A stretch of 32,803 bases of DNA, taken from Opitutales bacterium (lineage in GTDB: Bacteria > Verrucomicrobiota > Verrucomicrobiia > Opitutales > T3Sed10-336). Each line of letters starts with the position of its first letter. Within the stretch, counting starts at the first letter, position 1. Made by a program: the position numbers and the translations under genes. The notes under the pieces were generated by a model. It had not been told where the DNA came from and did not search any database. It worked only from the letters and a program-made list of their open reading frames with translations. Below, piece by piece: positions 4,580-22,166 of this stretch. The stretch lies in NCBI GenBank assembly GCA_022565335.1, contig JAIUMY010000033.1:1-32803 (forward strand). Direction: 5' to 3'.

Positions 4580-5146
4580 ATGCCTACACTCGCTGAAGGA
4601 ACAGGCCTGTTTCTGTATCCGTTGCTCTTCTGTGCCATCGTCGCTTTTTTCGTGGTGGTGGAGCGCCTCTTGGTTTTGTCCTCGGGACGGATCTGCCCGC
4701 CCGCATTGCTAAAGTCGCTGGCCAATGGGAAAGTGCCCGCCGATCCGGGCAAAAGTATGCTCGGGCGGATAGTCTCGATTTCCCGTGACTATGAAGGCGA
4801 CGATGAGGCGATTGGCGCTTTGGCCAGACTGGAGGCGAACCGCTTACAGCGCGGTTTGGTCGTGCTGGAAATTGTGATCGCCATCGCTCCCTTGATTGGT
4901 CTCCTGGGGACGGTAACTGGTTTGATTACGGTTTTTGGAAATATTTCGCCCGATACCGGAATGCCGGACCCCGGGATGTTCGTTGAAGGGGTGGCCCTGG
5001 CTCTCATGACGACAGGAGTGGGACTGGCCATTGCCATTCCGGGTCTGGTTTTCCATGGGTTTTTTCAACGAAAAGCCGAGACCTTCACCATTCAATTGGA
5101 GTCTGCGCTGGCCCTGGTGCGGGCGGCGGATAAAGAGGAGGACTAG
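4580..5146 (+). CDS. exbB: MotA/TolQ/ExbB proton channel family protein
   Basis: This is an inner-membrane subunit of a proton-motive-force motor that works with an ExbD/TolR partner. It has a hydrophobic segment at about 10-33, then a cytoplasmic loop, then a long hydrophobic segment containing IAPLIGLLGTVTGLI (the family's conserved PLLGLLGTVxGxI element), and a third segment near 137-161 (LMTTGVGLAIAIPGL). The product of 188 residues is near the short end of the family. The ExbD gene follows after 3 bases. No TonB or Tol-Pal genes are in the window, so whether the pair energises TonB-dependent uptake or envelope constriction cannot be decided here. Confidence 0.88.
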   Translation: MPTLAEGTGLFLYPLLFCAIVAFFVVVERLLVLSSGRICPPALLKSLANGKVPADPGKSMLGRIVSISRDYEGDDEAIGALARLEANRLQRGLVVLEIVIAIAPLIGLLGTVTGLITVFGNISPDTGMPDPGMFVEGVALALMTTGVGLAIAIPGLVFHGFFQRKAETFTIQLESALALVRAADKEED

Positions 5147-5149
5147 GAA

Positions 5150-5581
5150 ATGGCCGAAGTTTCAACGTCAGGAACGCCTCTTTTGACCCTTGGGCGGCAA
5201 AGGCGTAAACCGCGCATTGACATCATTCCGCTGGTGGATGTGTTGACCATTCTAATCTTCTTTTTTGTCACCAGCATGCAGTTTCACGATGTTCGTTCTC
5301 TGGATATCACGATGCCCCAAATGGACACCGCTGGAACGGGAACTCTGGAGGAGGGTTTATTGATTCGTTTGTCGGCGGACGGAGAGATCTTTTTGGGACG
5401 GGAAGGTCATTCAGTGGACCGGGATGGGCTGGTAAGTTTCCTCAGTCGTATGGAGGGGACCGGGCGTTATGTTTCGGTTCGCCTGATGGCGGACGAGGAG
5501 GCTCCGCTCCGGGAAGTGGCCTTCATTATGGACGAGTGCCGTCGGGTCGGCCTGGATCGTATACGGCTGCAAAGCCGCTGA
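5150..5581 (+). CDS. exbD: ExbD/TolR-family biopolymer transport protein
   Basis: This is the partner stator subunit of the adjacent ExbB-like channel. It has one membrane anchor (about residues 25-43) beginning DIIPLVDVLTILIFFF, which contains the conserved aspartate (Asp29) needed for proton coupling. A periplasmic domain follows and ends with the typical VxLxxD-like and helix-strand pattern (RYVSVRLMADEEAPL, then IMDECRRVGLDRIRL). The length of 143 residues is standard. A strong ribosome site (gaggaggactaggaa) precedes the ATG. It converges on hemA with only 21 bases between the stops, and no clear terminator is visible. Confidence 0.9.
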   Translation: MAEVSTSGTPLLTLGRQRRKPRIDIIPLVDVLTILIFFFVTSMQFHDVRSLDITMPQMDTAGTGTLEEGLLIRLSADGEIFLGREGHSVDRDGLVSFLSRMEGTGRYVSVRLMADEEAPLREVAFIMDECRRVGLDRIRLQSR

Positions 5582-9912: not shown

Positions 9913-11010
9913 TCAGAGAAGTTCCTTTTGATCTCCGCGGATAGCGGGCAACCAATCGAGTAGTGGTTTGCGCCTTTTTCCAGGCCGGTTAAGATCGTTG
10001 ACCATGGTATTGAGACTTTCGCTCACAATTTCACCCATATTCTGGCATTCCAGAAAGCGATCATTCTGGTAATGCTCAGTGAGGGATTCGCCTAGCTGGG
10101 CTACTTTTTCGGGGGTGGAGATTTGATCTGCGGACATGGCCTGCAGAAGTGCGGCCAAGCGCTCCCGGATGATATTCATACGCTTGAAAATAAGCGTTTG
10201 CTCTTCCCTTTGATATTGGTAGGCGGTGGTGGGATTCAGGTGTTTTATGCAATAAAGCGCCAGTTTGTTGTTTTCCCGGAAAAATTGCGGCAGGTAAAAA
10301 TTCTTAATGCCACTGTAGGACTGTTGGTCGAAGTCCATGGGTCGGATGCGGATCTGGGTTTCCTCAAAATCCGGGGTTACGTCGACGACGAAATTGTAGG
10401 AACGCATATCGCCCAGCAGGCGGATGAAGCAACGTTCGTTGAATTTTACCAATTCCTTGGCGACCCGCACGGGTTTCAGTCGGTTGCTTTCCAGCCAGTT
10501 GCCGATGAAAATATCACCGGGGATCCCGACGACATGCTCTTCAATCAGAGTATCGCCCGAACTGAAATAGTTCATTCGGTTAGGGGAAAGGAGATGTTCC
10601 AACTCCAGACCGTAGATCCGGGAGGCGTCGGCTTTTTTGATATAATAGTAGTCCTGGTTATCGTTGTAGGAGTTGACGATGCGAATCCGGAAAGGACAGG
10701 AATTGCCAAAGGTACAGTAATCCACCCGGTCAACATAAAGGTGTTTCATCACCGAAAGATCACCATCCACCTTCAACAAAGCATAGATATAGGTTAGTGA
10801 TTCAAAAAGTTCGGGGCGAATGTTGTGGTCATAGAAGACGGTTTCCCACAAAGTTTCCCGCCCGTTGGCATCCAGAAGAGGGACCGAACCTTGAAAGCGC
10901 ATCAGGTCTTGATAAATTACCGGTAGGGCCAGTTCCCGCCGATGTTGCACCAGGTAGCGACGCAATTTATCGACAATCGGATAAGTCGGTTTTTTATTGG
11001 TTGCGAACAT
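9913..11010 (-). CDS. Protein of unknown function with kinase-like motifs
   Basis: This is a soluble protein of 365 residues with no signal peptide or membrane segment. I do not recognise a named family. Motifs in the right order suggest a protein-kinase or phosphotransferase-like fold: a lysine pair in YYYIKKADAS (125-126) as a possible nucleotide lysine, IEEHVVGIPGD (156-166), LLGDMRSYNFVV (198-209, resembling the catalytic loop D-x4-N, Asp201 and Asn206), and PMDFDQQ (224-230, resembling the metal-binding DFD). The C-terminal third is helical. It is last in the accessory operon, 14 bases after the ribbon-helix-helix gene. If it is active, it could modify a partner in the system; catalytic activity is inference. 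It could also be an unrelated conserved family. Confidence 0.6.
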   Translation of the reverse strand: MFATNKKPTYPIVDKLRRYLVQHRRELALPVIYQDLMRFQGSVPLLDANGRETLWETVFYDHNIRPELFESLTYIYALLKVDGDLSVMKHLYVDRVDYCTFGNSCPFRIRIVNSYNDNQDYYYIKKADASRIYGLELEHLLSPNRMNYFSSGDTLIEEHVVGIPGDIFIGNWLESNRLKPVRVAKELVKFNERCFIRLLGDMRSYNFVVDVTPDFEETQIRIRPMDFDQQSYSGIKNFYLPQFFRENNKLALYCIKHLNPTTAYQYQREEQTLIFKRMNIIRERLAALLQAMSADQISTPEKVAQLGESLTEHYQNDRFLECQNMGEIVSESLNTMVNDLNRPGKRRKPLLDWLPAIRGDQKELL

Positions 11011-11024
11011 GAGGAAACCCTGGA

Positions 11025-11285
11025 TTAAAGAAGATGGGGTGGCAAATCGTCCTGAATGGATCTTCGTGGTTCCTGTTTTTTGGGGGAAGGGTCTGCTGCG
11101 GTTGGGGTTGCTTTTGCGGGAAAACTCTTTGGATGACCCTCCGGATGTTCGGTCGGGAAATGATCGATAGCCTTGGCCAGAAGGGATATAACTTCTTTGT
11201 TCAAGCTCCGGTGTTCCTGTTTTGCGCGCTCCCGGAGGGCCTGATGCAAATGAGGAGGAATGTTTTTGAGAAGGATATCGGCCAT
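11025..11285 (-). CDS. Ribbon-helix-helix protein, FitA/Arc-like
   Basis: This is a small probable DNA-binding protein of 86 residues. The first 42 fit the ribbon-helix-helix pattern of FitA-like antitoxins: a beta strand ADILLKNIPP, then helix HLHQALRERAKQEHRS, a turn, and helix NKEVISLLAKAI. The rest is a Pro/Lys-rich, disordered-looking tail (45-86). Antitoxins of this type normally sit next to a PIN-domain VapC/FitB toxin. No such gene is adjacent; the neighbours are a tandem-GYF gene and the kinase-like gene. It may autoregulate the operon or act with the downstream gene. No operator repeat is evident upstream of it. Confidence 0.7.
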   Translation of the reverse strand: MADILLKNIPPHLHQALRERAKQEHRSLNKEVISLLAKAIDHFPTEHPEGHPKSFPAKATPTAADPSPKKQEPRRSIQDDLPPHLL

Positions 11286-11316
11286 GGCATTGTTTAAGGT
11301 GAATAAAAGTTATCGC

Positions 11317-11736
11317 TTACCAAGTGTTCGTTGGCAAAACCTCCTCAATCTTTCGCCAACTTTGGGAATGTTCAAGCCAAAGGAGATTTTGTCCACCCAG
11401 TTTGCCCGCTTCAAGCAAAGTCTGAATCTCCCTAAGAGTGAAAGGCCCTTGTTGTCGATCATTCACCCAAACCCAATGCCGGGGGCGGGGACTTTGAGAG
11501 GGCTGCTTTTCTTCCTGCGTCCTCTTGGCAAGGGCCAAAGAGGAATTTGCTTTTTGTTTCGGGGAATTTCCGAAAATACGGGACAAGGGGATTGATTCAT
11601 CCGCGGTAACCAAATAGTGAAGGCCACCGAATTCCCGACGCAGGTATTTTTTGCGGATCTCACGAAAAGGGAAGGGACCATCTCGCTGGCCTTTGAACTT
11701 TATGTAAAATAGCTTTTCCTCGGGAAAGGACCTCAT
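11317..11736 (-). CDS. Tandem GYF_2-domain protein
   Basis: This soluble protein of 139 residues is built of two GYF_2-like domains. The first is near residues 8-54, with FYIKFKGQRDGPFPFREI. The second is near 88-136, with WVWVNDRQQGPFTLREIQ, then LEAGKLGGQNLLW and SWRKI. Each has the aromatic-x-G-P-(F)-x-x-x-(E/R)-I pattern. They are joined by a Ser/Lys/Pro-rich linker. The ATG at 11736 overlaps the stop of the 996-codon gene (ATGA), so I prefer it to the in-frame start 27 bases upstream. GYF domains in eukaryotes bind proline-rich peptides; bacterial GYF_2 binding is less certain. It is the second GYF gene of this operon and may tether to the proline runs in its partners. Confidence 0.75.
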   Translation of the reverse strand: MRSFPEEKLFYIKFKGQRDGPFPFREIRKKYLRREFGGLHYLVTADESIPLSRIFGNSPKQKANSSLALAKRTQEEKQPSQSPRPRHWVWVNDRQQGPFTLREIQTLLEAGKLGGQNLLWLEHSQSWRKIEEVLPTNTW

Positions 11737-14723
11737 TCTGGAAGAGGAGCACGATTTTGCCATTGTTGGCGAACAAATTCTGAGGAGGTATCCAGTTCCG
11801 AAGCCGTTTCCGTGATCAACCGGGCTAAGTTCTCATCGGGCACAAGTATTGGAGAAAGGGGAAGAGCCCAACTGGCGGGGTCATCTTGGGGAGGGTGCAT
11901 ATCCCAATCCCGCGAGGATTGATTGAGCGCGAATAACGGTGGGCGGGCAACCCCGGCGGGCGTGTGGACTGCCTCATCCACACCGACGAAACCAGCCAAT
12001 TCGGTGGAGATGTCGGCAAATCTCTGATGTAGATGGAAGACCACTCTGGCTTCATTCAATACCTCTGGTGGAGTCTGGTACAGCGAACGGATTTGCCGGG
12101 TCCGAATGGGATCTGAATCCTCGGACGATAGAAAATCATATACGGTAGGCGTATGGTTCCCCAAAACCCGTTCAAAATTGAGGCGATGGCTGCGGTAGTT
12201 TTGACTGAAGGCAATGCCCCAATGCCAGGGACGATGGCGAAATACCCTATGAAAATGATAGTCGATAAACAGCTTAAACCGGGGGTCCAAATCCTCATCC
12301 AGGTAGATGCGTTGGAGTTCCGCCAGAAGTGGCCGCTCAATGGTGTTGCCAGGGGCATCGAAAATATTCTGTAGGGTTTGCAGAACCTGCAGTTCCGGGA
12401 TTCTCCGCGCTTCTTCGGATAGCCATTCTCCTTCCCAGGATAAACGTTGTCCATCCGGTCTTATGCGGCGGGACCGACGAAAATTGACTTCCTCCAGATT
12501 GCCCGAGCCGAGGTATTGCTGAAAGGTATATTCCTCGATTTCCCGTCCAACCGCGAAGCTGCTAATCGAAACATCGCCGTAGACAAATACCGGAAAGGTT
12601 TCGCTGTTTCCGCGCGCATCCCGGCGATAGCCTTGGTGTAAACGGAGGTTTTCCAGATTTTCGCTTTCGAAATCGCGCAGTATGGCTTGAAAGGCCCGGC
12701 GTTCCTCGCGTTCGAGGGAATTGGGGGTGAATTCTCTGTTTTGATCGAGCAATTCTCCCAGGGGAGAGCGCGTGAATGCAGGAAAGAGGCTGTCCAGGGC
12801 ATCGGGATTTTCCGTCCACGCCCGCAGGGCCTCACTGGCGGAAGAGACCAAGGGAAGAGAAAGCTCAAGGAACGCCAACTCGGTTAGTAGTCGCCGATAT
12901 CCCTCCTCATTGGTTGCGCGATGAAGATTCTGCTCATGGTTACGGTATTCAATAAATTCATTCTGCACCGTTAGCCATCGGCTTTGAATGGTGGAGAAGT
13001 TTTCCTGAAAGGCTTCCCGTAATTCCAAAAACCGTGGCATGTTATCAACCATCTCCTGCCAATCATCATTGATCCGGTTGAAAGCATTTAATTGCTCTTC
13101 AAGTTCCTCTGGATCACTGATCCTATTGGGGTCCAGGGCCAGTTGGCGAAGCTCGCTCAACAATTCCCGGGCTTGATTATTGATCGAAATTTCGCGGCGG
13201 TTGCCTTCGGCCAGCAAACGTTCGTGCATGGTCTCCACGAATCTTCGCTGCTCCGGTACTTCGCTGGCGGGAATATCCGCCAAATTCTCCTCAATAATCG
13301 TCAAGCGGTTGCCGATTTCGTTGAAATGCTCGGTATACTCAGCGGCTGGAATCGATTCAATGAAAGAGCGATTGCGTTCAATTCGCTCCAAAGACGCCAA
13401 TTGAGGACCTATGAGTTCTTCGGCCTGCCTTTTTCTTTCCTCAAAGGCCTCCTCGTAAAATCGAATTCGTGACGGCAATGAATCCTCCATGAAACTTTGC
13501 AATTGTAAAGCGTCTGCCTGAGCTAATCTCTCATCAAAATTTTCCAGGGCTCTTCTTTCCCGGAGAAGGGAGAAGACGTTGGTAAGAAGGAAGAGCAAAA
13601 GGATGACCGCGGCGGCACCAGCGGAAATTTGAATAATACGCAGGCGTTTCACGTAGCGATCCAGCATCGTTTGGACTTCCCCGAGAACTTCCTTTTTTCG
13701 TTTTTCAAGTTTGCCGGGTAAAAAGCCTTCCAGAGATGCCATTTCCTCCTCCATCTCCTCCAACGCGAGGCAGAAATCCTGAACCTCCTGGCGTCCGGCC
13801 ATTGTTTTGTATTGAGAGGGCGGAAGAAGGGCAATGCCTTCGATTTGATTTTCCGCTTGCTCCGCCAGTTCGCGAATCCGTTGGTGTCGTTTTATGGTAT
13901 CACTCATTTTTTCCAAATGAGTGGCCCTTTTGGTATTCAGGTAGTGAGTGCCTTTGGCCAAGCCTTCCTGCAGATCGGAAAGGCACTGATAAGCTTCCTC
14001 CCACTCCTTAGCAGCGTAGAATTGGCTTAATTGAAAATAAAGCGCTTCGCCAGCCTCTTCACGTTGTTGCTGGGCGCGCTCTTCGGAAAGTTCGGTAATA
14101 CGAGCAAAGACTTCTCCCTCGAAGGGAACCATCCACTCTTCTTCCTGGATTTCCAGCCAACGGTCGATGGCTTGATCGTTTTCTTCGCGGGCGAGGAGGT
14201 TTTGGATTTCCTGTTCGTAAATCTCCAGGGTCTTTTTTTCAAAAACCTTTCTCTGTTGTTCCAAGGACTCATCCTCGGGATAGTTATGGTGAAGTTCCCG
14301 CAGAACCGGCAGGGCTTTGGGGAATTCCTTTTTTAAAATAGCGCCTTGCAATTCGCGGTATAACTCGTGGTCAGCGTTAAGCGGTTTGGCGTAAAGCTCT
14401 TGCAGTTTTTCGATGGCGACGGGGTCGTAATCGTAAATTGGGAAAGGCCATCCCTTTTCTTCGCAGAGAGTTTTCCAATGCTCTAATTCGCCAAACGTTA
14501 AGGTGTCAAGTTCGTCGAGTAAGGGTGGGGGGGTCTCGGCGATTTGCACCGCAGTGTAATCGTCACCGTACTCCCGTAAACGATCACAATCCTCGAGGCG
14601 TTGGCAGGCGGTGTCCCAGCGGTTGGTGAACTCTCGCGCCAAACTCTCTCCATTCTTGAAAGCTTTGGGATTCTTCAGCAGTGTCTCTATACGATGAATT
14701 AGGTGGGATGGCTCTATGGGCAT
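11733..14723 (-). CDS. Large coiled-coil protein with one central membrane segment, unknown
   Basis: The product has 996 residues. Residues 1-360 are highly charged and helical (TPR- or coiled-coil-like, rich in E, Q, L and R). One hydrophobic segment, IIQISAGAAAVILLLFLLTN, lies at about 363-382 between KRLR and RERR. Residues 390-680 are again long acidic helices. The last 300 residues have mixed composition with aromatic-rich segments (FPVFVYGDVSISSF; FRHRPWHWGIAFSQNY), suggesting a folded domain. There is no catalytic motif that I recognise. Basic residues before the segment favour an N-in, C-out arrangement, but both flanks are charged. It follows the GAP1-like gene by 37 bases and overlaps the next gene by 4. 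It is probably the main membrane scaffold of the complex; function unknown. Confidence 0.8.
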   Translation of the reverse strand: MPIEPSHLIHRIETLLKNPKAFKNGESLAREFTNRWDTACQRLEDCDRLREYGDDYTAVQIAETPPPLLDELDTLTFGELEHWKTLCEEKGWPFPIYDYDPVAIEKLQELYAKPLNADHELYRELQGAILKKEFPKALPVLRELHHNYPEDESLEQQRKVFEKKTLEIYEQEIQNLLAREENDQAIDRWLEIQEEEWMVPFEGEVFARITELSEERAQQQREEAGEALYFQLSQFYAAKEWEEAYQCLSDLQEGLAKGTHYLNTKRATHLEKMSDTIKRHQRIRELAEQAENQIEGIALLPPSQYKTMAGRQEVQDFCLALEEMEEEMASLEGFLPGKLEKRKKEVLGEVQTMLDRYVKRLRIIQISAGAAAVILLLFLLTNVFSLLRERRALENFDERLAQADALQLQSFMEDSLPSRIRFYEEAFEERKRQAEELIGPQLASLERIERNRSFIESIPAAEYTEHFNEIGNRLTIIEENLADIPASEVPEQRRFVETMHERLLAEGNRREISINNQARELLSELRQLALDPNRISDPEELEEQLNAFNRINDDWQEMVDNMPRFLELREAFQENFSTIQSRWLTVQNEFIEYRNHEQNLHRATNEEGYRRLLTELAFLELSLPLVSSASEALRAWTENPDALDSLFPAFTRSPLGELLDQNREFTPNSLEREERRAFQAILRDFESENLENLRLHQGYRRDARGNSETFPVFVYGDVSISSFAVGREIEEYTFQQYLGSGNLEEVNFRRSRRIRPDGQRLSWEGEWLSEEARRIPELQVLQTLQNIFDAPGNTIERPLLAELQRIYLDEDLDPRFKLFIDYHFHRVFRHRPWHWGIAFSQNYRSHRLNFERVLGNHTPTVYDFLSSEDSDPIRTRQIRSLYQTPPEVLNEARVVFHLHQRFADISTELAGFVGVDEAVHTPAGVARPPLFALNQSSRDWDMHPPQDDPASWALPLSPILVPDENLARLITETASELDTSSEFVRQQWQNRAPLPE

Positions 14724-14760
14724 GGGATAGGATGTTGGGCTAGAAACATAGCCGGGGTGA

Positions 14761-17664
14761 TCATTCGAAACGTATCAATGGTCTTTCTTGGTGGGTTAGG
14801 CTCCAGGGAAAAAAGGGATGCTCTTCTGAAAATTGCTCTTCCAGGAAGGCTGCAAGATAGGTTATGCGGGCTTCTTGCAAAGTGTCGTTCAGCTGGTCCA
14901 GACGGTTTTGCAATTCATCTTGCCAAGCTCCACGGGACTGTTCCCAGACGGTTCGATAGGTTCCGCTCGTCTGGTTCAGGCGTTTGCGCAAGGGTGATTC
15001 CTCCTCTTCTTCAGGGTCTTGGGTATCCACGGCATCATCCTCTTCCTCATTAGTTTCGGGATCGCTTGTCACCGGATCACCCTCGGCCGTCGGTTCGGTT
15101 TCCTCATTTTCGGAGTCCGTGCCGTTCCCGTTGCCGTTCCCCTCCGTTCGTTCTTCCGATTCACCATTTTCCTCGAAGTCTTCTGGGGTATTTTCGGTAC
15201 TCTTCGGTTCATCGTGAAAGACCAGAAGTTGGTCGTCCTCCAACTGCCAGGCGGAGAGCAAAATGAAGTGGGCAAAGATTTCCTGAAGCCAGTCGCTTTG
15301 GGTCAAACCCTCGTGGTTGGGGCGCGGGGGCAGGGCGCTTTCCAATTCCTGCAAATTCGGCGGGTCATTCTCCCATAGATGACGGTTTTCTATGATAAGG
15401 GAATGTATCTCCTCATGATTTTGCGCCACCAGTAAGAGTTGCTTCTCCGTTCGCTCTCCGTGCCATCCTTCACCCCGGGTGTATCGGGACCAACGGTCCT
15501 GCAGGCCGTCTAAAGTGAATTCCGTCCGACTGAAGGCCAGAAGACTTTCGATTTCGGCTTTGGACGACAAAATACCGGCGAGTTCATTTTCTAATTCCTC
15601 CAAGCTGGTGTCAGTGGAAAGGGTTGCATGCTCAGGCCAGTCTATAGGAAACTCCTCACTCTTCGAAGGGAGGAGGTGGAACGCCGGGGCTTGCGCATCA
15701 GTATTGGCTGTTTCCAGAAGGATCTCGTGAGTGAGAATCATCTCTATCCAAGCTGAAATTTGGTCATCAGGGAAATGACTCGGTGAGGTTCCGGTTAGCC
15801 GGAAGTTTTGCGAGGGTCGGTTGTTCCCTAAAGCGGGCCTAAGCAGATCTTCTGGCCAATGGATTAAGGACAGTAGAGGAGGTTCTTCTGGTTCTATTTG
15901 CAAATGTTCCCGTGGTGCCTGTAGGGGCGCTTGCTCTTCTGGAACAAGGATATAAAGGCCAACCGGGGGGTGATTTTCACCGGAAAAATGCAATTCCAGG
16001 TAAAGTTTTCTTTGATCCCTTAGGATTTGTCCCAGGTCCTGTGGTAAAAAAAGTTCCCGTTCCTCTGCCTCTTCGGAGGTGAAAATAATTAAATCGTCCT
16101 GGGGAGGAGTCTGGCTGCCCTCACTCTCTTCGAAGGTGTATATTCTCCTCGAAGACCCCTCGGAAGCTTCCTGAATAGCCCAATTCCCTGAATCCGCTAG
16201 CTGCGGGACCATCCATTGGGTGCTTTGTTGGACCAGTTCGTATAACTCGTTACTCCAATCGGAGAAACTCGCGACTCCTTCGTTGCTTTGTAATTGCTCA
16301 GCTCTTTCAATGAAAAGAAAGTAATTTTGGTGTGTCCACGGGAGGCGATCCTGGATTTCCCTTATTTTCTCCGAAGGCGGCTCAGCTGATAAAAAACCCT
16401 GGTAAGAAATCAACGCTTCGGCCGAGGATAAGACGAAGGGAGCACGGGACGATTTCTCGCGCTCCAAGGCCTCGATGAGATCCGACAAATGAATTTCCCA
16501 AAGGGGGGGTGCGTCTTCTTCAATTTCTTCCAGAAGATCAGTTGCCTGGTCTTCTTCGCGCTCCGCGGTAAGGGAGGGTATTGTATCGTCTTCGCGCGGG
16601 CTGGCTTCCTCTACAGCGGAGGGGGGAAAGAGCCGGTCTCCATTTTGTGTGCCTGGAGGAGGTGGGGGTGGTGGACTGGAGAGGAAATGAATCAGAATAA
16701 AGCCCAAGGCCCCCAATACAACCAGAGCTGCCGCGCCTCCTGCCGCATAAAGGCGCAGGTTCTTTGTTTTTGTTCCAGAGGATGAAGCAGCGCTGCGCTG
16801 CGGCCCCTTTTTCTTTATCTGTTTGACCCGAACCTCTCCTGGTTTGGGGGCCCGACGAAAGTAATCACCCCGCAGTTGCCGGGCCCCGTCATGTTGTTTT
16901 TCCATGCGGAGCTTTTTCCCCTGACTCTCAGGTAGCTTCGGTGGATCTTGCGTAAAGTCGAAAAAGTGGGTCTCCGGAAAAGAAATCGTTTTCTCGGGAC
17001 TTACCTTGGGCACCAGGCAAAGCCATTCAAAATCCTCTGGCTTATCTTTGATCTGAAGGCAAGTTGTGAAGGGTTTTTTCCAGGCATCATCTTTGAGCAG
17101 GGCCCCGCTGTCGGCAAAGAGAGCCAGACCTTTCGTCAAGGAATCAGCCATTGGTAACTTCATCGCGACGGGGGTTTCGCGTTCGGAAATAAGGGCCCAG
17201 TGGGCGGCGTAATCAGCGTCCCCGGCAATGCTCGTCCAGGCTTTGCGATCGGGCTTTGTTTCCGGCCAATCGGGATAATCACTCTCCTCCAGGTAACGGG
17301 CGGGATCATTCCAGTTTTCCCGCCATCCGGCCCAGTCCCTTAATAGAATGGCCGGGCCGGGCAGACCGAAGGTTTCGGCTTTATCCAAAATCAAATGCTG
17401 CGCGAGAAAATTGCCCCGGCCACTATAATCGCTGCCCGCCTTGCGAATTCGGGATAAAATATAATAGGTTTCACCGTTGGTTTCGAAGATGCGAAAACTG
17501 GCCAGTCCTTCGGGGTTACGAAGACGCTGATCGAAATGGCTGAGACGGACCAAGTGTCTTTGCAGGCGGCCAGGGAATTCCCTTTCCCGCGCAACCACGG
17601 TGAAACCATAGGATCCTGACTCAAGACCCCGCCGGCTACTGGTATAGAACAATTGCCACTTCAT
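14761..17664 (-). CDS. GAP1-N-like GTPase-associated membrane protein with acidic exterior
   Basis: The product has 967 residues. The first 260 resemble the N-terminal domain of GTPase-associated protein 1 (GAP1): WQLFYTSSRRGL at the start, HLVRLSHFDQRL (37-48), then GRGNFLAQHLIL (82-93), close to the family's GRxGNYFAH element. A basic stretch (278-302) precedes one membrane segment (305-328). It is followed by a seven-proline run ending PPG (331-338). The rest is acidic and helical. Residues 824-889 are low complexity, almost all E/D/N/T/G. The start is 1 base after the stop of the GTPase gene, so the two are coupled, as GAP1 and its GTPase usually are. Positive charges place the GAP1 domain in the cytoplasm and the acidic part outside. 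GAP1 assignment is from motif memory and needs a profile search. Confidence 0.7.
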   Translation of the reverse strand: MKWQLFYTSSRRGLESGSYGFTVVAREREFPGRLQRHLVRLSHFDQRLRNPEGLASFRIFETNGETYYILSRIRKAGSDYSGRGNFLAQHLILDKAETFGLPGPAILLRDWAGWRENWNDPARYLEESDYPDWPETKPDRKAWTSIAGDADYAAHWALISERETPVAMKLPMADSLTKGLALFADSGALLKDDAWKKPFTTCLQIKDKPEDFEWLCLVPKVSPEKTISFPETHFFDFTQDPPKLPESQGKKLRMEKQHDGARQLRGDYFRRAPKPGEVRVKQIKKKGPQRSAASSSGTKTKNLRLYAAGGAAALVVLGALGFILIHFLSSPPPPPPPGTQNGDRLFPPSAVEEASPREDDTIPSLTAEREEDQATDLLEEIEEDAPPLWEIHLSDLIEALEREKSSRAPFVLSSAEALISYQGFLSAEPPSEKIREIQDRLPWTHQNYFLFIERAEQLQSNEGVASFSDWSNELYELVQQSTQWMVPQLADSGNWAIQEASEGSSRRIYTFEESEGSQTPPQDDLIIFTSEEAEERELFLPQDLGQILRDQRKLYLELHFSGENHPPVGLYILVPEEQAPLQAPREHLQIEPEEPPLLSLIHWPEDLLRPALGNNRPSQNFRLTGTSPSHFPDDQISAWIEMILTHEILLETANTDAQAPAFHLLPSKSEEFPIDWPEHATLSTDTSLEELENELAGILSSKAEIESLLAFSRTEFTLDGLQDRWSRYTRGEGWHGERTEKQLLLVAQNHEEIHSLIIENRHLWENDPPNLQELESALPPRPNHEGLTQSDWLQEIFAHFILLSAWQLEDDQLLVFHDEPKSTENTPEDFEENGESEERTEGNGNGNGTDSENEETEPTAEGDPVTSDPETNEEEDDAVDTQDPEEEEESPLRKRLNQTSGTYRTVWEQSRGAWQDELQNRLDQLNDTLQEARITYLAAFLEEQFSEEHPFFPWSLTHQERPLIRFE

Positions 17665-17665
17665 G

Positions 17666-19486
17666 TCAGGGTAGAGCGGGAAAGAGTTGCGAATGGATTT
17701 GATGCAACGCCCAAAGAACGGGCGTTTCCACTTCTATAGGAGCTAACTTATTAGGATCCGGGGCCAAGTAGACCGCATCGCTCTCAGGGTCCTTGAATTC
17801 CTTGGGGGAGTGGCCAAAGGAACTTGCGGCAAAATACCGGACTTGGGAGGAAAGGGCTTCGGCATTGGCCACCAAGGCAGGTTCGTATTCCATGAGGAAT
17901 TCGCGAACCAGATTGCTGTTGTGTTTGATGGCCGCATTGTCGAGACCATTTTTTGTTATGGTGGGCTGAAGCTTCTCGCGGGGCAGGAGCGACTGCCAGA
18001 TGTCGCATTTGTTGACAATAACCGCCAAAGGTTTATTGATCTTTTGGTGACTTCTTAATTGGAGAATTTGTTTAATTCGATTCTCCATCTCGGCCATAAT
18101 CACTTCCTGATTGTCCGGAACGTGTGCTTTCAGTTGAGGGTCTTCATGGTCCTCTAGCTTTTTGCGCAGATCTTGATTCGGGGTGGGATCATAAATAAAA
18201 AGGATCGCCGCGGAGACCGCCACATGGAGAGCCCCGGGAGAGTCTTCCAGGGGAATATTGGGCTGAAAATGCTCGCCTGCATTATCGTAAAAGATCAGTC
18301 CTTCGTTTTTGTCCTCATTCTTTTCCGAAGAGAGGATAAAAGAGAAGGGTCGGGGAAGGGAAACTTCCTGCCCAAAACGACGGAGGCGGGTATACATTTC
18401 CCCTTCCAACTGCGTTTTTAAAAGAAAGGTCTCCTCCGGAGTTAGGCCCTGAAAAAGCCGGTTCCGCATCTCGTGTAAGACGGCATTGGCTTGCGGATCC
18501 TCGTCCCGGAAAGAAATCTCGAATTGTTTAAAGAGAGTCTTTTGTAACAGTTTGCTGAGAACCGTAAAGTAGTAAGACTTGCCACTTTGCGAGGCACCGA
18601 CAATAGAGAAGATGTGGTGGGGAATTTCCAGAAAATCGCGGGGGATTCTACTCCGACAATGAGGACAAGCCAAACCGGAGGCCGGGACCCCCGTTGAGTC
18701 GATTGGGAGACCCTCAGGTGTATAGCGGGTCGGGTAAAAACGAAGCCTCGCGTTGTCGCCCATCACTGGATCCGTGAGATCTTCGTGCGCCGCGATCGCC
18801 ATAACCGTCGATTCATTGAAAGGAAGCCAACAGGAAGGACAGATTTTATCATTGGGATCGCGGTCAAAAATTGCATTTACGCCGTGCTGCAAAATTTTCT
18901 CGGCCTTTTTTCGCCTTTGCGCGAATTTGGCCTCGTGATCCTCCTCTTGCCCTCCATCGCTTTCACTCTGATAAGTAAGATTGGCGAATAAGGCGGCGCA
19001 GGGAAAGGGTTCAAACTCTTCCAGAGGAAAGATGTCCGGTAATGCCGATGTGACCTCCAAAGAGTAATTTTTGGCTTTGATTCGAGCGGCTAAATCCTCG
19101 AGTTCTGCAGGTTCCCCGAGTGACTCGCGTTCCTCTCCGTATAAATTCCACTTTAACGGCAATTCGGGGTTTTCCGGAGGTTTGGGGCGACGATCCGCAT
19201 CGGCTTTGAGAATATACGCTTTGTCACCAACCAGAATTGAATGGTAACGAGCCAAAACGATCTCGTAAGTAGTCGGCTCCTCGTCCCCCCAATCGCCATC
19301 GACGCATAAATAGGTGTCCGTTTTATGATGCGCTATCCCGATTTGCCCGTCCCGTGGCTCAAGCAGAGAAACCGGAGCTTCATCAATTTCGGCCTCTCGC
19401 GGAAGGGGGTAGGGGAATTTGCTGATGGTGCTCCATTGACCTTTTTGGCAATCGAACAGAAAGAGGGCTAATTTTGATCGTGGCAT
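17666..19486 (-). CDS. DO-GTPase-like GTPase with embedded zinc ribbon
   Basis: This is a cytoplasmic protein of 606 residues. Residues 1-200 are a beta-rich region of unknown fold. A split zinc site follows: CPSC (216-219) and CPHC (274-277). The GTPase core starts directly after it. The P-loop is GASQSGKS (297-304). The Walker B/G3 element is LIFYDNAGEHF (397-407), and the G4 motif is VNKCD (491-495), the guanine-specificity element. A zinc ribbon next to a TRAFAC-type domain, together with a GAP1-like partner one base downstream, matches the double-GTPase (DO-GTPase) class described computationally in NTP-dependent conflict systems. Only one P-loop is present. It is probably the switch that drives the complex; its trigger and output are unknown. 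Confidence 0.78.
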   Translation of the reverse strand: MPRSKLALFLFDCQKGQWSTISKFPYPLPREAEIDEAPVSLLEPRDGQIGIAHHKTDTYLCVDGDWGDEEPTTYEIVLARYHSILVGDKAYILKADADRRPKPPENPELPLKWNLYGEERESLGEPAELEDLAARIKAKNYSLEVTSALPDIFPLEEFEPFPCAALFANLTYQSESDGGQEEDHEAKFAQRRKKAEKILQHGVNAIFDRDPNDKICPSCWLPFNESTVMAIAAHEDLTDPVMGDNARLRFYPTRYTPEGLPIDSTGVPASGLACPHCRSRIPRDFLEIPHHIFSIVGASQSGKSYYFTVLSKLLQKTLFKQFEISFRDEDPQANAVLHEMRNRLFQGLTPEETFLLKTQLEGEMYTRLRRFGQEVSLPRPFSFILSSEKNEDKNEGLIFYDNAGEHFQPNIPLEDSPGALHVAVSAAILFIYDPTPNQDLRKKLEDHEDPQLKAHVPDNQEVIMAEMENRIKQILQLRSHQKINKPLAVIVNKCDIWQSLLPREKLQPTITKNGLDNAAIKHNSNLVREFLMEYEPALVANAEALSSQVRYFAASSFGHSPKEFKDPESDAVYLAPDPNKLAPIEVETPVLWALHQIHSQLFPALP

Positions 19487-19535
19487 CGGATTTTAGGACC
19501 TGGCATCGGGGTTATTGTCGGGGATTATGGGGTTC

Positions 19536-20360
19536 TCAAAGACTATCTTGAAGATAAGTTTCATAAGAAGCAAAAGAATTTTCCAACTTCCCGATTTTAT
19601 CAAGAATTTCTGCTCTTTGCATACGTTTGGCAAAAATATCACTTTGCTCCCTCTCCGCTTGGAGAGCGGTTTCTATTTCTCGCAAGGTCAGAAGTAACTT
19701 GTGGGCCATCGCAAGATCTTCGCTCAAGTTATTGTAAAAATCCAGGATTTCCGGCTCCGTAAAAAGATTCTCAGCCCGTACAACGTTTGCCTCCAGATGA
19801 CGAATTCTTTGCTCCTGAACTTCCCAGCGCAGATTGCGTAGATCTTGTAATGACTCCAGGATTCGCCGGGTTTGCGCTAAGTGGTTGACCTTTTGTTGGG
19901 ATTCAAGGTCTTCCAGGCTTCTTGCTCCCGCGGGTTTACTGGTTTGGTCTTCCGGAGGGGGCGGCGTTTTTTCCAGAAGAGCGGCCCCGATAAAGAGAAG
20001 CCCAACAAAAGCCGTCGCCAACCCTAAGGCAAAGATCCCACGGTAAACGAGAAAATTGCGGGAAGGTGAACCATGGTACCGGGGGACGTTCAACTCCGGC
20101 TGGTTTTTGACAGAAGTCTGACCATTAGGTGGAAAATCCTTGCCGCTTGGCGGTGGGGGGGGAGCATTCGGATCGGGTTCTTTTTCTTTAGGTTTATGGG
20201 GGAGAGATTGGTAGTTTGCCAGCCTCTCCCAGGTCTCCGCCGTTTCATGTCGAACGAGGGTCTTTTCAGTGAGTACTCCCTCTTTCCGAAGCTCTTCGAT
20301 GAACTCAAGCGGAATGGGTCCGTAGACTTTTTTCTGATGGCAATAGTAAAACTGCTCCAT
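19536..20360 (-). CDS. GYF_2-domain protein with one membrane segment
   Basis: The product has 274 residues. A GYF_2 domain fills the first 50: FYYCHQKKVYGPIPL, then LTEKTLVRHETAETW. It is followed by a proline-rich cytoplasmic linker (APPPPPSG), one membrane segment (GIFALGLATAFVGLLFIGAA, about 108-127), a second PPPP run, and a helical C-terminal domain of about 130 residues outside the membrane. The ATG at 20360 is 2 bases after the stop of the upstream gene; a TTG at 20366 is an alternative start two codons earlier. The layout (GYF inside, coiled coil outside) mirrors the two larger membrane proteins of the operon. The 49-base gap to the GTPase gene is one of the longest in the block. Confidence 0.78.
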   Translation of the reverse strand: MEQFYYCHQKKVYGPIPLEFIEELRKEGVLTEKTLVRHETAETWERLANYQSLPHKPKEKEPDPNAPPPPPSGKDFPPNGQTSVKNQPELNVPRYHGSPSRNFLVYRGIFALGLATAFVGLLFIGAALLEKTPPPPEDQTSKPAGARSLEDLESQQKVNHLAQTRRILESLQDLRNLRWEVQEQRIRHLEANVVRAENLFTEPEILDFYNNLSEDLAMAHKLLLTLREIETALQAEREQSDIFAKRMQRAEILDKIGKLENSFASYETYLQDSL

Positions 20361-20362
20361 GG

Positions 20363-22108
20363 TCAAGGGTCGCTATAGCGACGCTGAAATTCTTGTAGAA
20401 TAGCGTTGGCAAGACGTTGGCGGGTTAGCTGTAGAGTCGTTTCATCAAGGCCTGCCGCTTGGGCGTGACTTAAAGATACAATGATTTGCCCCTGTTGACT
20501 AAAAGATAGCATTTTCTCACGATGTAGTTCAATATCAATGGCTTTTTGCAAAAAGCGCTTCGCGCTGGCTAACTCTTCGGAATCGGAATAATTCTCCCCT
20601 AAAGAGTCCAGGATTTTTTGCGCGGCAAGGTAAGATCCCGCTTTGGTTTTTTGCCGGGCTATCGATAAGTCCCTTAGGAACTCTTGATACGGGATCATTT
20701 TTTGGTCCAGTTTGACGAGGATTTGTCTATATTGCTCTTCTAACTGAGGGTAAGGACGCAGTAGAGAGTAAATCAGTTGGCCCCGGCGATTGAGGATTTC
20801 CTGCAATTCATCTTGCTTTTGGTGGGGGCCTCCGGTTTCCCGCAAGTGCAGGACATAGCCTTGCAGGTGAAGAATCCATTTCTCCAATTGGTCTGGGAAC
20901 TCCGGGTTATGAGGCCAGAGATCCAGAGACTTTGCTTTTTTTCGTAATGCCTCTTCGTAATTTTCCCGCTTCAGGTCGATTTTGCCTTGCTCCAGAATGT
21001 CCACTGCTTTGTCCCGGACTTTTTCCGTGCTGGTTACGACCTGTTCCCATTCCTCTGTGGGGTGGCTTAACCAGGGTTCATTCCTCAGTTTTTCCAGAGA
21101 AACAGTCCAGTTTCTCTCCGTTAGATTTTGCCGTATTTGCTGGATTTCCCGATAGTAGGAATGCAGTTGATGACGAATTTCCGGGGGTAAATACGATTCT
21201 CCCAAATGGGGATGATAGGTTGCCAAAAAAAATAATTCACCCGCCCGTAAAAAGGCCTTGGGGGTGTCGCCCTTTTGCAGGGCTAATTTGATTTCCTGAT
21301 TGGTCGCGTCGATCTTGGCCAATATTTGCTCAGCGATATCCGCTTCGGCTCTGGCTGTTGCCGACAGGCTACTGCCAAATCTCTGCGTTTGCGGATGCAG
21401 ATAATCGATCAAACTATCGAGTAAGATAACGGTGGAATATTGTCGCTGACGGGCACTGAAAAGAACGATTTTGTTCCAATCGTCGATGGTTTTTCTTTCC
21501 TCGGCTTCCAGAATTGCCAGGTCTTCCCGAAGGGTTTCTTGCTGTTGCTCCAAAATTTCCTCCGCGCCAGAATCTGAAGTTCGCCGTTTAGCTTGCTCCA
21601 AGCTGTTTATTTGCGCTTGAATACGGCCTTCACTTTGCCGTCTTATTATATGTTCGTCTAAGAGTCGCAGGATTCCCTCGGTCATTTTTCCCCAAAGGGG
21701 GTCTCCCGCCGAATCGACTTTCTGAAGTTTATCTCGGAAACGGTGAATCCGTTGGCTGTTCCAGGGCTGGAAACTTTCATCCGGGGCAGCAGTTCCGGAG
21801 AACTCTTCCAGAATGCTTCGCCACACCCCGCTATTGGGGTGACTTACTTCTAGAGGGATTTTCCCGCGGTTAATAAAATCATACCAAAGTTTTCGGTCTT
21901 CTTCCTCCCACGGAAGGGTCACAGGATGGGAATTGAACAAACCTGACTCCATGGAAAAAGAAGGCGACCAAAGTGGGGACCAATGCTTCCAGGCCTGCTG
22001 GACCGCGCTCACGGATTCTCGCGGATTAAGAACCTGTCCCTCGGCCCTAAGGGAAAGGGGTAGAATCAAACTCGATAAAATTAAAACCCATATAGTCCAA
22101 ACTCCCAT
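20363..22108 (-). CDS. Exported helical repeat protein, unknown
   Basis: The product has 581 residues. I place the start at the ATG at 22108 because it opens directly with a signal peptide, MGVWTIWVLILSSLILPLSLRA. A longer frame starting at 22165 would begin inside a hairpin next to the xseA stop and bury the signal. The mature part is nearly all alpha helix, rich in Q, E, L and R, with TPR-like stretches (for example ENYEEALRKKAKSLDLWP and GSYLAAQKILDSLGENY). No catalytic motif is visible. The protein is probably periplasmic or surface-linked and could meet the external helical domains of its three membrane neighbours. It is the first gene of the accessory block, 57 bases after xseA. Confidence 0.72.
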   Translation of the reverse strand: MGVWTIWVLILSSLILPLSLRAEGQVLNPRESVSAVQQAWKHWSPLWSPSFSMESGLFNSHPVTLPWEEEDRKLWYDFINRGKIPLEVSHPNSGVWRSILEEFSGTAAPDESFQPWNSQRIHRFRDKLQKVDSAGDPLWGKMTEGILRLLDEHIIRRQSEGRIQAQINSLEQAKRRTSDSGAEEILEQQQETLREDLAILEAEERKTIDDWNKIVLFSARQRQYSTVILLDSLIDYLHPQTQRFGSSLSATARAEADIAEQILAKIDATNQEIKLALQKGDTPKAFLRAGELFFLATYHPHLGESYLPPEIRHQLHSYYREIQQIRQNLTERNWTVSLEKLRNEPWLSHPTEEWEQVVTSTEKVRDKAVDILEQGKIDLKRENYEEALRKKAKSLDLWPHNPEFPDQLEKWILHLQGYVLHLRETGGPHQKQDELQEILNRRGQLIYSLLRPYPQLEEQYRQILVKLDQKMIPYQEFLRDLSIARQKTKAGSYLAAQKILDSLGENYSDSEELASAKRFLQKAIDIELHREKMLSFSQQGQIIVSLSHAQAAGLDETTLQLTRQRLANAILQEFQRRYSDP

Positions 22109-22151
22109 TTTTTCCGCGGGGGGAATGGTTTCTAAAGATATTAAGGGGCAC

Positions 22152-22166
22152 AATGCCGTCGGCATT
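22152..22166. promoter_or_regulatory. Hairpin between xseA and the accessory operon
   Basis: A perfect 6-base stem (aatgcc/ggcatt) around a 3-base loop lies exactly at the xseA stop. Read on the minus strand it has no T tract after it, so it is a poor terminator in the direction of transcription. It could protect the xseA 3' end or reduce read-through into the accessory genes. Confidence 0.3.

Follow-up and report, generated by a model that had tools for sequence, protein, structure and literature searches.

Eight same-strand genes and the limits of the system

Eight open reading frames lie on the minus strand of the window, which is the whole 32,803-nucleotide stretch of an Opitutales bacterium genome analysed here (contig JAIUMY010000033.1; the assembly is 91.7% complete and comprises 196 contigs). 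They run from position 22165 down to 9913 with gaps of -31 to 49 bases, in the strand, order and tight spacing described by an earlier, sequence-only reading of the same DNA. That reading also took the eight genes for one unit. Short gaps fail to delimit such a unit, because xseA abuts the first cassette gene and tig-clpP-clpX upstream and pyrD-hemH downstream share the strand, with gaps that are equally short beyond both ends. The flanks that were looked at are housekeeping genes, recognised by sequence (tig-clpP-clpX-xseA and pyrD-hemH) or by Pfam (rnpA and a nucleotidyltransferase gene), and in other genera of the window's family xseA, pyrD and the last of the eight genes occupy different contigs.

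This last gene (9913..11010, minus strand) encodes a conserved protein that had been called kinase-like, a label for which no profile support was found: the protein has no family match at cut-off in Pfam or NCBIfam, no significant one in PADLOC and no match in the PDB. It is 52-68% identical to its homologues outside the genus and carries invariant PGD, GDMR.YN and DFDQQ-type motifs. The gene is present in 30 of the 53 sampled genomes of the order, including all but one sampled member of the family, compared with 13 of 53 for the GTPase gene, which the remaining genera of the window's family lack. Fourteen kinase-like loci read outside the genus have no cassette gene nearby, and their neighbours differ. 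Membership in the system was rejected on this distribution and linkage, and because the gene is order-wide and unaccompanied by cassette genes in the loci read outside the genus it is best regarded as a conserved gene of its own. A single phospho-regulated operon of all eight genes would fit the short gaps and the identical gene order in a sister species of the same genus (locus L015), but it is very improbable in view of the separate distribution of the kinase-like gene, the lack of support for its kinase identity and the equally short gaps beyond both ends.

The ribbon-helix-helix (RHH) gene (11025..11285, minus strand), an antitoxin gene that separates the cassette from the kinase-like gene, was correctly named from its sequence and matches a FitA-like family (Pfam 40.9 bits against a cut-off of 27). 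It has no adjacent toxin gene, recurs only in L015 of the same genus, and is probably an orphan FitA-like antitoxin outside the system.

The two upstream genes are specific to the genus. The first (EXP600; 20363..22165, minus strand) encodes an exported helical protein of 600 residues, weakly TPR-like, with a signal peptide-like start near residues 20-42. The second (GYFTM; 19536..20366, minus strand) encodes a 276-residue protein with an N-terminal GYF-like domain, a proline-rich linker, one transmembrane (TM) segment (near residue 111) and a C-terminal coiled coil. Its GYF_2 score of 23.6 bits is below the Pfam cut-off of 25.8, and an independent GYF profile also matches. Full-length homologues of EXP600 and GYFTM occur only in L015, where they are 59% and 54% identical to the window's proteins as against 88% for the GTPase; no full-length counterpart was found in distant loci, and the other GYFTM matches are weak and fall on the GYF parts of relatives.

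The system thus comprises six genes: a four-gene core that is conserved across phyla (DO-GTPase2, a single-TM GAP1-N2 protein, a 996-residue protein and a GYF protein) and two genus-specific partners. Joint conservation in relatives, on which the earlier reading was made to depend, holds for this core; it does not extend to the kinase-like gene, is doubtful for the RHH gene, and reaches no further than the genus for the two upstream genes. With the core conserved together and the GTPase and GAP1 assignments upheld by profile searches (below), the earlier identification of a GTPase system stands.

The four-gene core

The GTPase gene (17666..19486, minus strand) was assigned by Pfam to DO-GTPase2 (PF19993) at 27.0 bits, exactly at the cut-off of 27; the GTPases of relatives score from 23.6 to 31.4 bits. 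Its N-terminal beta sandwich covers residues 7-96 and a GYF-like segment residues 112-170; the zinc ribbon (C216/C219...C274/C277) and a Ras-like GTPase domain make up the other parts. All four are also seen in its AlphaFold model (pLDDT 82.6). A weak GYF_2 match (Pfam) at the N-terminus of the GTPase of one relative (L075) was recorded as well. The GTPase domain has the P-loop GASQSGKS and the motifs YDNAGEHF and NKCD; P-loop, Walker B and NKCD are intact in the alignment, and the glutamate of YDNAGEHF is invariant in 27 of 27 aligned rows. Foldseek matches of the model are to Ras, EF-Tu and YcjX, and a sequence search of the PDB returned nothing meaningful.

One base downstream lies the gene of the GAP1-N2 protein (14761..17664, minus strand), an assignment that is supported by the Pfam profile (67.3 bits against a cut-off of 24); the profile also matches in relatives. 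A conserved N-terminal domain (residues 1-215) is followed by one TM segment (about 310-330) and a fast-evolving C-terminal part that is predicted to be non-cytoplasmic. GAP1-M and GAP1-C domains have no match in the window copy, and GAP1-M is recognised in L075. The three membrane partners that had been proposed proved to be the GAP1, 996-residue and GYF-TM proteins, with one TM segment each, as judged from the sister-species orthologues in L015; the 600-residue protein has the signal peptide-like start noted above.

The 996-residue protein (CC996; 11733..14723, minus strand) is built of a helical N-terminal domain (residues 1-360), a TM segment (near 368), a helical bundle, a beta domain (690-775) and a C-terminal domain, with the part beyond the TM segment predicted to be external. 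Its AlphaFold model (pLDDT 81.6) shows a helical head, the TM segment, the helical bundle and the beta domain. A structural search gave no match at E<=0.001, and scattered weak NTF2-like matches were set aside. Neither CC996 nor EXP600 nor the kinase-like protein has a family at cut-off in Pfam or NCBIfam or a significant match in PADLOC. A profile of the CC996 N-terminal domain finds 39 matches in 289 genomes of the phylum: 35 are no more than 15 kb away from a GTPase gene and share its strand, and the remaining four are either second copies or located on a different contig. This linkage identifies CC996 as a conserved third core component, one without recognised relatives.

The tandem-GYF gene (11317..11736, minus strand) is translationally coupled to CC996 through an ATGA overlap and encodes a 148-residue protein with a GYF_2 match of 45 bits (Pfam) and a second GYF repeat that is supported by an independent profile. 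Of the two GYF genes that had been reported, this one is therefore clear by Pfam score and the 276-residue GYFTM is weak. At the tandem-GYF position the GYF domain of relatives is part of a larger protein with RDD, PrsW, ABC-transporter or further TM domains; for example, the fusion partner is a PrsW-type intramembrane protease in L067 and an ABC transporter in L071, and both genes are cassette-linked. Distant loci in Opitutia, Verrucomicrobiaceae, Lentisphaerae, Planctomycetota and other groups show a recurring order of GTPase, GAP1 with a TM segment, a CC996-like protein with a TM segment near residue 360, and GYF with TM segments.

The two faces of the membrane proteins appear to evolve at different rates. 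Between the window and L015 the cytoplasmic heads are 91-93% identical, as against 61.5% for the external part of GAP1 and 73-83% for the external parts of CC996; for the pair L016/L017 the values are 78-88% for the heads and mostly 26-59% for the external parts. These comparisons suggest an external face that evolves fast and a switch that does not. The N-in, C-out topology is predicted from charge distribution.

Stator and other envelope genes in related loci

In many related loci the core is followed by genes for an ion-channel stator. A profile of the linked MotA/TolQ/ExbB family gives 23 strong matches (>=313 bits) in the 289 genomes of the phylum; 22 of these adjoin a GTPase or CC996-like gene and the 23rd is at a contig edge, compared with none of the 24 next-best MotA/ExbB matches (220 bits or less). 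The order in many loci is GTPase, GAP1, CC996-like, GYF, MotA/ExbB, ExbD-like A and ExbD-like B; the genes are permuted in L067 and L097 and divergent in L058 but remain linked. The channel protein scores above cut-off for PF01618 and is usually accompanied by two differing single-TM, coiled-coil ExbD-like subunits. Both carry an aspartate where the TM segment begins, which is the hallmark position in ExbD, TolR and MotB. By pattern it appears in the A type as FQD in 25 of 26 proteins, the 26th being a mis-called start, and in the B type as LLLD in 21 of 24, plus one read by eye.

The window has no such stator. The PF01618 channel is absent from its operon, the linked family has no match anywhere in the assembly (91.7% complete), and profiles of the two ExbD-like partners find no match among the window's proteins. 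An ordinary exbB-exbD pair near the cassette (4580-5581) was considered as the missing stator and rejected: its ExbB is plain and short, aligns with the linked family over the channel region only, and the pair gives no match to the family's profiles at the thresholds used. The relevance of the stator to the window copy is by descent, since the window's genome lacks it. A quick, midpoint-rooted GTPase tree places stator-bearing copies on both sides of its deepest fork, with at least nine changes of state, one locus (L110) being scored as stator-less only through the picking of open reading frames. On this rooting, loss of the stator in the window's lineage would be likelier than late gain. The earlier description of an envelope-spanning machine gains support from relatives, whose cassette carries the channel, two ExbD-like subunits and, in one family, PilM- and PilO-like genes.

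The PilM- and PilO-like genes belong to a family, f54 (L119-L128), whose cassette is joined to another type of envelope machine. Its loci carry the GTPase and CC996, several of them with a short GAP1, and next come PilM-like genes (PilM_2, up to 6e-16) and PilO/T2SSM-like ones, the latter with weak matches. This arrangement directly after CC996, together with the GYF-ABC transporter fusion in L071, could indicate an export or assembly platform in which the cassette regulates or scaffolds a secretion or pilus-like machinery, with EXP600 and GYFTM as substrate-side parts. Such a platform is improbable for the window, in that the features are confined to f54 and one further locus and nothing alike occurs here.

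In the sister stator-less clade, a divergent ECF sigma factor gene stands beside the GTPase in five loci (L018, L020, L022, L062 and L063), and in four of them a putative TM anti-sigma factor accompanies it; no such sigma gene occurs in the window. The placement suggests envelope-stress-type control in that clade, the only one in which the sigma pair was found.

Proposed role and relation to known systems

Systems of DO-GTPase and GAP1-N2 were described by Kaur et al. (2020, eLife 9:e52696; PMC7159879), who proposed a role in conflict or defence. The GTPase/GAP1-N2 pair, which the sequence-only reading had already related to surveys of conflict systems, and the links to GYF proteins are known from that survey: a zinc-ribbon DO-GTPase2 followed by a GAP1-N2 with a TM segment is reported from verrucomicrobia, and GYF proteins from planctomycete versions. 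The survey describes an FNIII-repeat component for N2 systems and variable effectors (SLATT, trypsin, tubulin, HSP70 and others). Within the window's eight proteins there is no FNIII match at E<=0.1 (Pfam) and none of these effectors in Pfam, NCBIfam and PADLOC scans, in agreement with the earlier statement that an effector is not recognisable, and the cassette is thus a DO-GTPase/GAP1-N2 system without the FNIII component or a known effector. It differs from the described systems in having CC996 as a third component and, in relatives, a linked stator trio; the main text of Kaur et al. mentions neither MotA, ExbB, TolQ, RDD, PrsW nor any stator. The literature searched, that main text included, yielded no earlier description of a GTPase with a stator, nor of CC996 as a core component, the two-B-subunit stator, the sigma link or the stator-less lineage.

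Three other groups of proteins invite comparison. The relatives' channel resembles the ExbB-ExbD, TolQ-TolR and MotA-MotB stators in pairing PF01618 with a single-TM partner that has an aspartate at the TM start, and differs from them in forming a family of its own, in which 22 of 23 genes adjoin that of the GTPase or CC996, and in having two dissimilar B subunits with long coiled coils. The stress GTPase YcjX, which is linked to Psp, shares a Ras-like GTPase tied to membrane stress and gives the longest Foldseek alignment among the matches listed; it is not known to have a zinc ribbon or GAP1, GYF or TM partners. In Zorya a MotA/TolQ/ExbB channel can serve phage defence. Relatives of the cassette likewise pair an inner-membrane channel of this type with single-TM partners; the cassette differs in its GTPase core, in the two differing ExbD-like subunits of relatives and in the absence of the channel from the window. 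PADLOC searches for Zorya genes yielded, in relatives only, ZorA matches at the level of the domain and a single weak match to ZorC (0.004), and no convincing ZorB, ZorC, ZorD or ZorE.

An anti-phage or conflict system, in which the external parts would detect an invader, the GTPase would act as the threshold, and components in the membrane would kill or contain (by stator leak in relatives and through the helical proteins in the window), is consistent with family membership and what Kaur et al. proposed (PMC7159879), with the patchy presence of the GTPase (13 of 53 genomes of the order) and with the fast-evolving external parts. The precedent of Zorya and the weak match of the relatives' channel to ZorA profiles over the shared channel domain also point this way. 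However, no defence family was recognised among the window's eight proteins, a nuclease, peptidase or pore effector is likewise missing, and housekeeping genes make up the flanks that were inspected. None of the present tests supports defence specifically; it is less probable than the reading given next, yet a serious rival to it.

The reading favoured here, with a probability of roughly 0.45, is that of a GTP-switched inner-membrane complex that senses or maintains the envelope and is stator-less in this lineage. The cytoplasmic DO-GTPase2 would form a complex at the inner membrane with GAP1-N2, CC996 and the GYF adaptor. GAP1-N2 and CC996 would each cross the membrane once, with a conserved head on the cytoplasmic side and a large, variable, putatively external part. 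Binding to these external parts, or mechanical strain on them, would be relayed through GAP1 to the GTPase, which would set the assembly state, and GYF-peptide contacts would hold the assembly together; this direction of signalling, like the function of the stator and the role in the envelope, is inferred. In stator-bearing relatives the output may be the MotA/TolQ/ExbB-type channel with its two ExbD-like subunits, a presumptive proton- or sodium-driven motor that would be driven or gated by the complex. Candidates for the output in the window are the exported helical protein and the GYF-TM protein. With no motor in the window's lineage and EXP600 and GYFTM in its place, the complex would most likely be an envelope sensor or scaffold with a role in envelope stress or maintenance. 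A more specific proposal, to which somewhat less weight is given, is that DO-GTPase and GAP1-N2 are the switch of a GTP-gated, ion-driven envelope motor with a five-plus-two stator, and that the window's lineage lost the motor and kept the switch.

We know of no output for DO-GTPase/GAP1 systems, and the strictly linked ion channel with two aspartate-bearing subunits offers one that is concrete and testable. Natural stator-less copies such as the window's are ready-made comparisons, and CC996 adds a conserved third component without recognised relatives. As the same genes stand beside a dedicated ion-driven motor in relatives, this family of GTPases could be the control element of an envelope machine that consumes energy.
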